23,538 nucleotides of DNA, from positions 1 to 23,538 of IMG/VR virus record IMGVR_UViG_3300047491_000900; one strand, written 5' to 3'. A program made the translations under genes and the position numbers. Origin of the DNA: a virus. This document shows, piece after piece, positions 10,771 to 17,778 of the stretch. The notes beneath the pieces were generated by a model. The model saw nothing but the letters and a program-made list of their open reading frames with translations. It made no database searches and was not told where the DNA came from. Within the stretch, counting starts at the first letter, position 1, and the number at the start of each line of letters is the position of its first letter.

Positions 10771-11787
10771 TTAGAAGGCAAACTTATCTTTTGAAAAAGA
10801 AAAAGATTGCTCCACATAACTCTGGTTCGCATACACAAAATCATCCCAGCCAGCAGATTTGGAAAAAAACAAGCCAAAAACACCATTTTCCTCTCTATTT
10901 TCACATCCAGATATGCGACCCTTCATCCATGAGGAAAGCTCAGACATGCCATCAGAAATGGGCACATCAAAAAGCCCGAGCATATCCGCAACATCGGTGC
11001 CATCAAGCCATGCATATCCAGTCATTTTTTCACCTTGCTTGTAACTTGGAGGCAAGCCACGGTCTATGGCGGCGCCCACGAATAGCATGACCAACTTTAG
11101 GTAATTTTTTGCATCATGATAATTTAGGCATGCGCTGGAGTCCATGAACCTAAACTCTATGGTCTGACGCTTGCGATTGCACAGGTGGTATGTATTCATG
11201 GACAAGTACTTGTGCTCGCCAACCATGGAAATAAGATCACGGCTTTCAAGCATTGGATCCTCCATGTCCATGACAATATCAGATGTCGATATGAACTGAC
11301 AGTACCTGTTGCGCCGGCGCCCAATAGGAACAATTGCCGACATTGCATATTCGCACTTTATCCACCAAGCGATGATGGATGCTATCTGGTCGCTAGAAAG
11401 GTCGTGAACATCGACATGGACATGAAGTGAACACCTGTCATCGGCTGAGACACGGCCATCTCGGCTAAGTGCATCCACGACGGCGCAAATCGACCTGACG
11501 CCAGCCATGCCCTTGCAAACGGGGGTGCATATTTCCATGCCACAGCTGCTATCTGGCTTTAAAATCCATGTGTCATTGTTGTGGTTGCTGCCCCATTTCT
11601 GCACATAAACCCTTTCCCGTGTGGCGGACTGTACTATGTTAGCCACCTCATGCATCCCAGAGGGCAGCCTACCAATCTCATGGCCAATTGGTCTATTCCG
11701 CATGTCAAATGAATTGACCTCTATCTCCACTCCAAAACGGCGGAGCATACATCGCCTCAGTTTTTCGCAACTGTTGTCCATGAACAT
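10771..11787 (-). CDS. Amidoligase-family (COOH-NH2 ligase) enzyme
   Basis: The pattern matches the putative amidoligase family (Amidoligase_2): RRFGVEIEVNS at the N-terminus, WILKPDSSCGMEICTPVCKG around residue 80, CSLHVHVDVHD around residue 120 and RQTIEFRFMDSSA around residue 210. The Glu, Asp, His and Arg residues in these motifs are those expected for ATP and metal binding in the ATP-grasp/glutamine-synthetase-like fold. Members are predicted to join an amine to a carboxylate, making small peptides or modifying proteins; the substrate here is unknown. Starts at 11796 (GTG), 11790 (GTG), 11787 and 11781 (ATG) are all possible; I use the first ATG, giving 338 residues. A TATAAAT element lies just upstream in the divergent gap. 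Confidence 0.82.
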   Translation of the reverse strand: MFMDNSCEKLRRCMLRRFGVEIEVNSFDMRNRPIGHEIGRLPSGMHEVANIVQSATRERVYVQKWGSNHNNDTWILKPDSSCGMEICTPVCKGMAGVRSICAVVDALSRDGRVSADDRCSLHVHVDVHDLSSDQIASIIAWWIKCEYAMSAIVPIGRRRNRYCQFISTSDIVMDMEDPMLESRDLISMVGEHKYLSMNTYHLCNRKRQTIEFRFMDSSACLNYHDAKNYLKLVMLFVGAAIDRGLPPSYKQGEKMTGYAWLDGTDVADMLGLFDVPISDGMSELSSWMKGRISGCENREENGVFGLFFSKSAGWDDFVYANQSYVEQSFSFSKDKFAF

Positions 11788-11792
11788 CACCG

Positions 11793-11810
11793 GCACTTAT
11801 AATTTATAAT
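11793..11810. promoter_or_regulatory. Divergent promoter-like element (GCACTTATAATT plus second TATAAT)
   Basis: The plus strand carries the same 12-nt GCACTTATAATT as at 5757, immediately followed by a second TATAAT. Read on the minus strand this gives TATAAAT, the T4-like late box, pointing at the amidoligase gene. The plus-strand gene at 11828 has GGAG 5 nt before its ATG, giving it a normal leader. The quasi-palindrome could serve both genes; function is inferred. Confidence 0.42.
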
Positions 11811-13565: not shown

Positions 13566-13605
13566 AAAAAAGCGTATACACAATGTGATTACATTGTGTA
13601 TACGC
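13566..13605 (-). terminator. Strong intrinsic terminator after the SSB gene
   Basis: A perfect 15-bp stem (13572-13586 paired with 13591-13605) with a 4-nt loop is followed on the minus strand by six T (13571-13566). It lies 18 bp after the stop of the SSB gene, so it ends that transcript before uvsX. No T-run follows on the plus strand. Confidence 0.92.
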
Positions 13606-13622
13606 CAAATTCAACAAGGTCT

Positions 13623-14618
13623 TTACATGGCGCCAAGTTCTTTTAAGAAGTCCTCGTCAGCCATTGAGTCGTCATCAGCCTGCTTTGGCTTCTGGGACGC
13701 TTGCTTGGGAGCGATGTCCTCGTCACGGATCTTATCAGCGCCCGTGGCCAAGGTTGATGATGCTGGCTTTGCTGGCTGCCTTGTGGCTTGACCATAGAAC
13801 TCATTAAGATCATTGCTATCCTCTTCGACAACCATACCACAATGGACACGCAATGCATGCTTGAGCTCATCTGAGGTCTTAAGCTTTCTCAGCATCTTTA
13901 GGTCGATAAGATTGCCAAACCATTTTTCCATCTCCTCTTGAGTTCCGGCAACACTTGGATCCTCAAAGCGACTGTTGTCATAGTTTGGGTACTCCCTTGC
14001 GCCACTCTTGACAACTTTTTTGACGAGACGGAAGTCACGGCCAGTGTCTGGCCTTGTGATGTCGCCAAGCTCTTTTTCTCCAGAAACTTGATCGCCATTG
14101 ATTGCCAGCATGATCTTGGCGTGAACTTGCTTGCCACAGCTGTAGATTTTTGGCCCGACATTCTTAAGAGTGCCGCCCTTGCCATCACTCTCGGATCGAA
14201 CGATGACATTGTAGTAATACCTTTCAAGCGGCTTTAGATCACGAGCCTGGTTTTGCATGTTCTCCTGATCCTTGCCATTTAATCTTTCGCTTTTCTGCCA
14301 AAGATTGTGGTAAAGACTGCAGATTATGCAATCGCCACGCCACGCCTCCTTGCCATTAGCATCCCTAGTCAGTTCCCTTGGACAATGATATTGCGTTTTT
14401 CTTCCAGTGCTTGGATTCGTAAGCGTATGAATCCTGGTGGCGCAGAAAAACTGCTGGCCTTTCTTGCGTGGAAGAAATCTCATCAGAACAAAACCGTCAC
14501 GCTCTGGCATTCTTACAAACTGTTGCATGAACTCGTTTTCAGAGCCTTCGCCTGAGTTTATTCTCTTGACTTCTTTCTGAATGGAATTGAGGTCGAGTGG
14601 TTCAAAATCGATAGACAT
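13623..14618 (-). CDS. 32: gp32-like single-stranded DNA-binding protein
   Basis: The 331-residue protein has RFLPRKKG and a zinc site with His64, Cys79, Cys97 and Cys100, a near copy of the T4 gp32 set His64/Cys77/Cys87/Cys90. LERYYYNVIVR and GPKIYSCGKQVHAKI, then GRDFRLVKK, follow in the gp32-core order. The last 20 residues are acidic with FLKEL, the usual protein-partner tail. gp32 coats single-stranded DNA at the fork and in recombination. ATG 14618 is chosen because GGAG lies 8 nt upstream; the in-frame extension to 14657 would start inside the leader. It is a separate transcript between terminators at 14760 and 13566, with two hairpins in its leader that may permit self-regulation, as gp32 does in T4. 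Confidence 0.93.
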   Translation of the reverse strand: MSIDFEPLDLNSIQKEVKRINSGEGSENEFMQQFVRMPERDGFVLMRFLPRKKGQQFFCATRIHTLTNPSTGRKTQYHCPRELTRDANGKEAWRGDCIICSLYHNLWQKSERLNGKDQENMQNQARDLKPLERYYYNVIVRSESDGKGGTLKNVGPKIYSCGKQVHAKIMLAINGDQVSGEKELGDITRPDTGRDFRLVKKVVKSGAREYPNYDNSRFEDPSVAGTQEEMEKWFGNLIDLKMLRKLKTSDELKHALRVHCGMVVEEDSNDLNEFYGQATRQPAKPASSTLATGADKIRDEDIAPKQASQKPKQADDDSMADEDFLKELGAM

Positions 14619-14649
14619 GGATATATCTCCGTTATTTAAAGGTGTTTTC

Positions 14650-14669
14650 GGACACAAACAGATGTGCCC
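14650..14669 (-). promoter_or_regulatory. SSB leader hairpin B (loop UCUGUU)
   Basis: On the minus strand a 7-bp stem, GGGCACA with TGTGTCC (one G-U pair), encloses the loop TCTGTT, identical to the loop of the hairpin at 14684. It ends 31 nt before the SSB start. The GTGT in its 3' arm can instead pair with ACAC at 14642-14645, so two shapes exclude each other. This is consistent with a regulated leader; function is inferred. Confidence 0.5.
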
Positions 14670-14683
14670 AATTTGTCGTATTC

Positions 14684-14705
14684 GGGGAGCAAACAGATGC
14701 GCCCC
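14684..14705 (-). promoter_or_regulatory. SSB leader hairpin A (loop UCUGUU)
   Basis: On the minus strand GGGGCGCA and TGCTCCCC pair with one mismatch around a TCTGTT loop. The centre lies 35 nt upstream of the second hairpin, and the two share CATCTGTTTG. The stems differ but are kept, which suggests the loop and structure matter. Confidence 0.5.
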
Positions 14706-14751
14706 AATTCGTAAGGTAATAGTTACCAGTATCTAGTTTCTTTTACAAGAT

Positions 14752-14760
14752 TAATTTATA
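14752..14760 (-). promoter_or_regulatory. TATAAATTA late-type promoter candidate for the SSB gene
   Basis: On the minus strand this sits directly on the T-run of the upstream terminator. It would start the SSB transcript about 130 nt before its ATG, including both leader hairpins. The match to the T4 late box TATAAATA is 7 of 8. Not tested. Confidence 0.35.
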
Positions 14761-14791
14761 AAAAAAATTCCCGGCCTATTTTGGCCGGGAA
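14760..14791 (-). terminator. Intrinsic terminator upstream of the SSB gene
   Basis: TTCCCGGCC (14768-14776) pairs perfectly with GGCCGGGAA (14783-14791) around a 6-nt loop, and eight T follow on the minus strand (14767-14760). It lies 18 bp after the stop of the 14810-15232 gene, closing that transcript. The stem is G/C-rich and the T-run is long, so it should be strong. Confidence 0.93.
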
Positions 14792-16662: not shown

Positions 16663-17778
16663 ATGTACGATTTCCTTATTGTTGGCGCCGGCTTCTTTGG
16701 GTCTACATTCGCAAGGCGTGCGCACGACGCAGGCAAGCGTGTCCTTGTCGTAGACAAGAGGCCGCACATAGCCGGTGCCGCCCACGACACCCCACAAGAT
16801 GATTACTTCGTGTCAAGCTATGGCGCCCACATATTCCACACACACAGCGAGGAGGTGTGGGAATTCGCCAGTCGATTCACAAGGTTCTTGCCATTCATCA
16901 ACCGCCCAAAGGCAATGTCAAACGGCAACATATATAGCTTCCCAATCAACCTGATGACAATGCACCAGTTGTGGGGCGTGCGCACCCCCGAGGAGGCAGC
17001 AAGGCGTCTCGATCGTGAAAGAGTGAAGATAGAAAGCCCATCAAACTTCGAGGAGTGGGCGCTCTCGATGATAGGAAAAGATCTATACGAAAGGTTCATC
17101 TATGGATACACAAAGAAGCAGTACTTGCGTGAGCCAAGGGAACTGCCGATGAGCATCATCCAGCGCCTTCCAATACGCCTAACCTATGATGAAAACTACT
17201 TCACCACCAAATATCAAGGCATACCTGCGAACGGGTACACGAACATGATCCGTGAAATGCTACAAGGTGTGGATGTCGAGCTTGGCGTTGACTTCATCAG
17301 GAGGCGTGACTCACTCTCGGGCATGGCAAGACATATCATCTACACAGGCCCAATAGACGAATTCTTTGGCTATGAACATGGGCGACTCGAGTACAACACC
17401 ATGATCTTTGAGCGCAGGGAGTTCACCGGCGACCAACAGGGCAACGCAGTGATAAACCATGTCGACCAGTACACCCAATGCCTGAGGTCAATTGAGCATA
17501 GGCATTTCTATATCCACGGCGAGTCGACAAAACACTATGGGGCTGCATCACAGCCATTCACCAGCGTGGTAACCTATGACCTACCAATAAGCTTCAAGGA
17601 TCACCCAGACCCACTTTACCCAATCCGCAACAAACTGAACAGCGACATGTACCAGAGATACTCATCGATAAGGCCGAGGAATGTTCTGTTCGGAGGAAGG
17701 CTTGGTGAATACAAATACCTCGACATGGACCAGTCAATGGCATCCGCCATACAGAAAGCAAAGGCACTTGGTTGCTAG
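16663..17778 (+). CDS. glf: UDP-galactopyranose mutase
   Basis: The 371-residue protein has an FAD-binding VGAGFFGS (7-14), DKRPHIAGAAHD (31-42), YGAHIFHTHSEEVW (53-66) and the family segment GYTKKQYLREP followed by a YQGIPANGY motif. The C-terminus has FGGRLGEYKYLDMD, the flavin-binding closing motif of UGM. It converts UDP-galactopyranose to UDP-galactofuranose, the donor for galactofuranosyl transfer, with a reduced FAD. The length matches bacterial UGM (about 370-390). It stands alone on the plus strand, and its TAG stop overlaps the dCMP deaminase stop as CTAG. A GGGTG lies 5 nt before the ATG. Galactofuranose decoration of phage or host glycans is inferred. Confidence 0.96.
   Translation: MYDFLIVGAGFFGSTFARRAHDAGKRVLVVDKRPHIAGAAHDTPQDDYFVSSYGAHIFHTHSEEVWEFASRFTRFLPFINRPKAMSNGNIYSFPINLMTMHQLWGVRTPEEAARRLDRERVKIESPSNFEEWALSMIGKDLYERFIYGYTKKQYLREPRELPMSIIQRLPIRLTYDENYFTTKYQGIPANGYTNMIREMLQGVDVELGVDFIRRRDSLSGMARHIIYTGPIDEFFGYEHGRLEYNTMIFERREFTGDQQGNAVINHVDQYTQCLRSIEHRHFYIHGESTKHYGAASQPFTSVVTYDLPISFKDHPDPLYPIRNKLNSDMYQRYSSIRPRNVLFGGRLGEYKYLDMDQSMASAIQKAKALGC

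Follow-up and report, generated by a model that had tools for sequence, protein, structure and literature searches.

The gene for the single-stranded-DNA-binding (SSB) protein of this virus is preceded by what is, by sequence comparison, the 5′ UTR of a single-gene SSB mRNA made of two parts: a structured 5′ end, which in the window consists of two tandem hairpins, and, after it, open A/U-rich sequence in which the Shine-Dalgarno lies. By window we mean the whole stretch of 23,538 nucleotides that was analysed. The hairpins are real, and the variation found among relatives points to their maintenance by selection on RNA. We give a probability of roughly 50% to the reading, drawn by analogy with phage T4, that this leader acts as a gp32-like autogenous SSB operator of a different construction, with a structural cap at the 5′ end followed by an open site for the loading of SSB.

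The features of the region, all on the minus strand, are listed below from upstream to downstream.

14768-14791 (-): intrinsic terminator of the gene upstream of SSB, a 9-bp GC-rich stem followed by T8
14743-14760 (-): conserved promoter box TATAAATTAATCTTGTAA, including the -35 TTGTAA (14748-14743); exact core in relatives
14720-14725 (-): putative -10 TAACTA, with a 17-bp spacer; its position agrees with the clear promoters of relatives
14677-14712 (-): hairpin unit 1, ACGAAUU, stem 14705-14698/14691-14684, loop UCUGUU, then CGAAUACG; 44.3 bits, covariation
14643-14676 (-): hairpin unit 2, ACAAAUU, stem 14669-14663/14656-14650, loop UCUGUU, then CGAA; E=7e-6
14631-14649 (-): A/U-rich spacer GAAAACACCUUUAAAUAAC, candidate SSB-loading site; unpaired in the predicted fold, openness family-wide
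14627-14630 (-): Shine-Dalgarno GGAG, from the sequence
13623-14618 (-): gp32-family single-stranded-DNA-binding protein, 331 aa, start codon ATG at 14618; PHROG, Pfam and PDB profile matches
13571-13606 (-): intrinsic terminator between SSB and uvsX, a 16-bp stem and a T-run

The SSB gene and its transcription unit

An earlier reading made from the sequence only had called the gene gp32-like, and profile searches agree: the protein matches PHROG 1192 at 3e-19, PHROG 224 at 9e-18 and the Pfam gp32 family PF08804 at 2e-12, its profile matches PDB gp32 chains (E 1e-7), and PF08804 was found in 10 of the 10 SSB relatives tested. Since terminators flank the gene on both sides, SSB would form an isolated, single-gene transcription unit. 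The gene downstream encodes a UvsX-like recombinase; SSB and uvsX are neighbours in most relatives, with terminator-like hairpins at their junction, and many uvsX genes lie directly 3′ of the hairpin with no obvious promoter. Expression of uvsX may come from read-through of the SSB unit. As a neighbour comparison, the uvsX leaders mostly began directly after a terminator, with no clear start site. Two other genes of the window may be mentioned: one for an amidoligase-like protein at 10771-11796 (-) (PHROGs 2443 and 7469), and a 371-aa ORF at 16663-17778 (+), on the strand opposite to SSB and the replication genes, which matches PHROG 9677 (function unassigned) at 2e-105.

Relatives were collected by protein-based scans of viral contigs, to which the phage record LR756511 (595 kb) was added, giving about 65 distinct SSB leaders; a search of bacterial genomes with the SSB protein gave no match. 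The sequence TATAAATTAATCTTG is exact in the window, L003, L007, L026, L027/L039 and L103/L105, and 16 of the 17 viral contigs that carry the box TTTTATAAATTAATCTTGY also carry an SSB relative. The window's own SSB promoter is a weak match, and we placed its transcript start from the promoter positions of relatives: judged from the -10, it would lie at about 14713-14712, just ahead of hairpin unit 1. At the equivalent place relatives have clear promoters of the form TTGACA-N17-TATAAC, in which CGATAT frequently precedes the -10, or TTGCAC-N17-TATAAA in L028. In 17 long records, all matches to the CGATAT/TATAAC form with at most one mismatch fall at the SSB gene, and this promoter looks SSB-specific; with all matches at SSB genes, the records searched yielded no non-SSB leaders behind such a promoter that could have served as controls.

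Tandem hairpins in the leader

Both hairpins stand on the minus strand at the positions first proposed for them. Hairpin 1, GGGGcGCA-UCUGUU-UGCuCCCC (14705-14684), contains one C-U mismatch, and hairpin 2, GGGCACA-UCUGUU-UGUGUCC (14669-14650), one G-U; their stems thus differ in sequence yet pair, while the UCUGUU loops are identical and 35 nt apart (36 nt between unit starts). Both helices are extended outward by U-G and U-A pairs. Because the units (14712-14677 and 14676-14643) abut, they form a tandem duplication of an element of 34-36 nt, composed of ACnAAYU, a stem, a loop ending in GUU, the other arm of the stem and CGAA. The predicted fold of the 97-nt leader reaches -29.7 kcal/mol, whereas dinucleotide-shuffled sequences give -19.1 ± 3.0 (z -3.5, 0/200), and the folding z of a single hairpin is -3.1 or -3.5.

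A covariance model built from six units, from which W2 (the second window hairpin) was excluded, found W2 at E=7e-6 and gave no other convincing match across the window besides the leader hairpins. In the 16 records searched, which are fragments (one, 80 kb long, contains three units) and speak for their own content only, all strong matches to the unit fall in SSB leaders, and the remaining ones have E>0.16. Among weak matches, two of equal score (16.7 bits) lie 1.3 kb apart and away from the SSB gene in G013, the record of L033 (104485-104520 and 105775-105810).

The hairpin sequence and the copy number (1, 2 or 3) vary among SSB leaders. There are two hairpins in L003 and L024 (SSB 89% identical) and three in a row in L028 and four near-identical contigs (SSB about 59% identical). 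L103/L105, L007/L025, L026 and L027/L039 have one, and LR756511 and L021 (about 35%) have two tandem hairpins whose sequence is unrelated to that of the window's. The SSB protein tree places the window together with the one-hairpin L026, apart from the three-hairpin L028. A single origin of the tandem arrays was considered and dropped: the tree rejects a clade of the window, L003 and L028 (p-AU 0.004, for a clade named after the first tree had already been seen), and copy number would therefore have changed more than once, or leaders have been exchanged.

Evidence for selection on RNA structure

Seven hairpins (two from the window, two from L003 and three from L028) were aligned by their arms, with the loops replaced by a constant filler. 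In this alignment 94.2% of the cells are paired, as against 30-54% in slid controls, and 5 of the 10 stem pairs show changes on both sides. The double-changed cells number 10 where shuffling gives 4.2 (0/500), and the covariation score is 0.58 versus 0.27 (0/500), figures to be read in the light of seven hairpins that come from three genomes, do not amount to seven independent events, and were picked for folding. The covariation holds with the true loops and W2 left out. Independent of this set, a clean A-U/G-C exchange at the base of the stem distinguishes two near-identical leaders, those of L103 and L105; in the other close pairs, from 11 clusters, the counts are small and mixed, with 3 double changes paired, 13 single changes paired and 5 broken.

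The sequence-only reading had suggested aligning the leaders of homologues and looking for covarying stems around an unchanged loop. Relatives do keep the hairpins and their stems covary; the loop, however, is not strictly conserved, UCUGUU being replaced by UUAUGUU, UAUGUU, UAUCGUU, AUGUU or AUUAUU, so that what stays constant is its U-rich 3′ part, mostly GUU. The flanks AC.AA and CGAA are present in 7 of the 7 hairpins by the arm alignment, and the GUU loop end in most. That reading had also named loss of the hairpins in relatives, or a transcript start inside or downstream of them, as signs against it; the hairpins are kept, and the start would lie just upstream.

Layout of the leader across the family

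Layout statistics were obtained on 44 leaders less than 80% alike, in which the -10 boxes were set by hand and the starts taken from them. In these, the first 10 nt after the putative start are unpaired at 0.37, versus 0.62 in shuffles (z -7.3), and the final 30 nt ahead of the AUG, taken as three bins of 10 nt, exceed the shuffles in openness (z +3.9, +5.1 and +2.9). The first helix lies 0-7 nt from the putative, unmapped start in 41 of 42 leaders; little structure is seen in the leaders of L080, L113 and L117. Open initiation regions are common among well-translated genes, which makes the 5′ pairing the more telling half of this layout.

The open A/U-rich stretch that had been noticed before the Shine-Dalgarno sequence is present in the window, and its openness is found family-wide. 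Among spacers, ACUUU is enriched (42 occurrences versus 17.6 in shuffles, with a shuffle maximum of 28); the window's spacer is open and A/U-rich and contains one UUAAA only and no ACUUU. An 11-nt tandem repeat, CTTTTGTGTAA, occupies the spacer between hairpin and Shine-Dalgarno in five copies in L027 (1430-1490) and in two copies in L039, and since the SSB genes of these two are nearly identical, the open stretch would have been lengthened or shortened recently.

Comparison with known systems and possible functions

In T4, gp32 is a translational repressor of its own mRNA, to which it binds first at a pseudoknot (about -67) and next along an unstructured A+U-rich stretch with UUAA(A) repeats. 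RNase E cuts this mRNA at -71, a short way upstream of the pseudoknot, and no other T4 message is as stable (PMC3014915). The RB69 operator has a similar layout with diverged sequence (PMC535899), while RB49 has neither the pseudoknot nor the A+U stretch (PMC3014915). The leader studied here shares with the T4, T2 and RB69 operators the protein family, a structure upstream of an unstructured A/U-rich initiation region and a sequence that diverges among relatives; with T4 it also shares a structure at the 5′ end of the mature mRNA, which in T4 follows the RNase E cut at -71 and which here depends on the placed start. Two differences stand out. The T4 operator is one H-type pseudoknot, whereas here there are plain hairpins in one to three copies, in tandem; and the 5′ end of T4 arises by RNase E processing of longer transcripts, whereas here it would come from a promoter that seems SSB-specific. 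That the hairpins are not of the T4 form, as first remarked, agrees with the pairing of 48 loops to downstream sequence, which is no better than in shuffles (mean z 0.03). As far as such loop-downstream pairing shows, a T4-type pseudoknot is rejected, and the window's sole candidate is not conserved; the leader is set apart from T4-type operators, and repression is carried over here by analogy.

Another known RNA to be compared is STAXI (Weinberg et al. 2010), which consists of tandem pseudoknots, often with UUCG tetraloops and often near SSB genes (PMC2864571). Tandem structured repeats in two or three copies and the vicinity of an SSB gene are common to both, but STAXI has pseudoknots with frequent UUCG, and here we have simple hairpins whose loops are 5-7 nt long and in most cases end in GUU. 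Rfam gave no match at gathering score in the window and, for six leader loci, none at E≤1 except an unrelated one at 0.23; Rfam families, STAXI included, were rejected for want of a credible match.

If the leader is an autogenous operator, its structured 5′ end would protect the SSB message from decay, and the hairpins would delimit, on the upstream side, the single-stranded region on which SSB lands. When in excess of single-stranded DNA, SSB would coat the open stretch cooperatively and so block ribosomes. Specific recognition of the hairpins by SSB is putative, since their sequence is not conserved across the family.

The main and serious rival is that the hairpins are only a 5′-terminal stabiliser: pairing at the 5′ end would block decay that depends on that end and, together with a strong promoter and a terminator, give an abundant, long-lived message with no action of SSB. 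RppH and RNase E require single-stranded 5′ ends, and in E. coli structure at the 5′ end makes mRNAs more stable (PMC3997798). In agreement with this, terminators bound the SSB unit and helices sit 0-7 nt from the putative start with a sequence free to vary, as if any helix would serve; a helix at or near the (predicted) 5′ end with largely free sequence is also what the stabilising 5′ stem-loops of ompA and papA have. But one helix should be enough for this purpose, and here two or three copies and the ACnAAYU/CGAA flanks are kept at about 59% SSB identity; unlike the ompA and papA stem-loops, these hairpins come in multiple copies, have conserved single-stranded flanks and, in the records searched, belong to one gene only. 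A stabiliser also leaves the ACUUU-rich open spacer unexplained. We regard protection alone as possible, at well under even odds.

A more specific form of the operator reading, which we put forward tentatively and with less than even confidence, is that ACnAAYU-stem-(n)GUU-stem-CGAA would be a novel RNA element restricted to the SSB mRNAs of one phage group, amplified into a tunable tandem array (two or three copies, with single-hairpin relatives) whose conserved single-stranded flanks and loop might be recognised by SSB or a partner, giving graded autogenous control unrelated to the T4 pseudoknot.

Autogenous control by gp32 has been worked out only for T4 and close relatives. Here dozens of diverged SSB leaders keep one layout while hairpin sequence and copy number change, and the family lets tests separate the parts of an operator, namely the structured 5′ end, the open spacer and specific letters. 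Among its members, related SSB genes are preceded by one, two or three hairpins, a gradation that occurs naturally.

Alternative roles of the repeats and alternative folds

The inverted repeats could instead be operators in the DNA that overlap the start site and bind a dimeric repressor of transcription, for they lie at about +1 to +70 of the seemingly SSB-specific promoter. A sequence-specific operator would be expected to keep its half-site letters, but the stem letters differ between copies and between relatives. Furthermore, 8 of the 9 non-Watson-Crick cells in the eight core pairs are G-U, where column shuffles give about half (0/5000 as extreme), and this excess favours RNA over a DNA palindrome and argues against such operators, which we consider improbable.

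More doubtful still is that the hairpins are transcription attenuators, that is, early terminators under the control of an antiterminator or of an alternative fold. By a loose criterion, a U-rich tract follows soon after the first helix in 16 of 42 leaders; in the window, however, no U-run comes after either hairpin, the sequences there being GAAUACG and GAAAACACC, and an attenuator was rejected for the window on this ground. The alternative fold that had been proposed, GTGT (14655-14652) with ACAC (14645-14642), has its letters in place and could pair; as a functional switch it finds no support, for the pairing is weak (-2.1 kcal/mol versus -12.5 for the hairpin displaced) and the closest relative, L003, has AAUAAACC in place of ACAC.

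Least probable of all is a self-masking switch in which the loops pair with the Shine-Dalgarno region: between the loop UCUGUU of window hairpin 2 and AACGGA six pairs are possible (-4.9 kcal/mol), but with a z of -1.9 only, in one genome, with no equivalent in the loops of L003 and L028 and with the 48 loops at shuffle level.

Two observations on single leaders remain. In L003 (2912-2990) both hairpins fall inside a single short open frame, MFVSRIRQMGSHMFVARINLFT, and their loops contain ATGs; a leader peptide covering both repeats in one frame was taken as chance, because these ATGs are absent from the window. The leader of L075 (upstream of 1501) contains nested alternative hairpins, GACAGCAC..GTGCTGTC followed by GCTTTTTT, and GACACCAAA..TTTGGTGTC, which look like a terminator/antiterminator pair.
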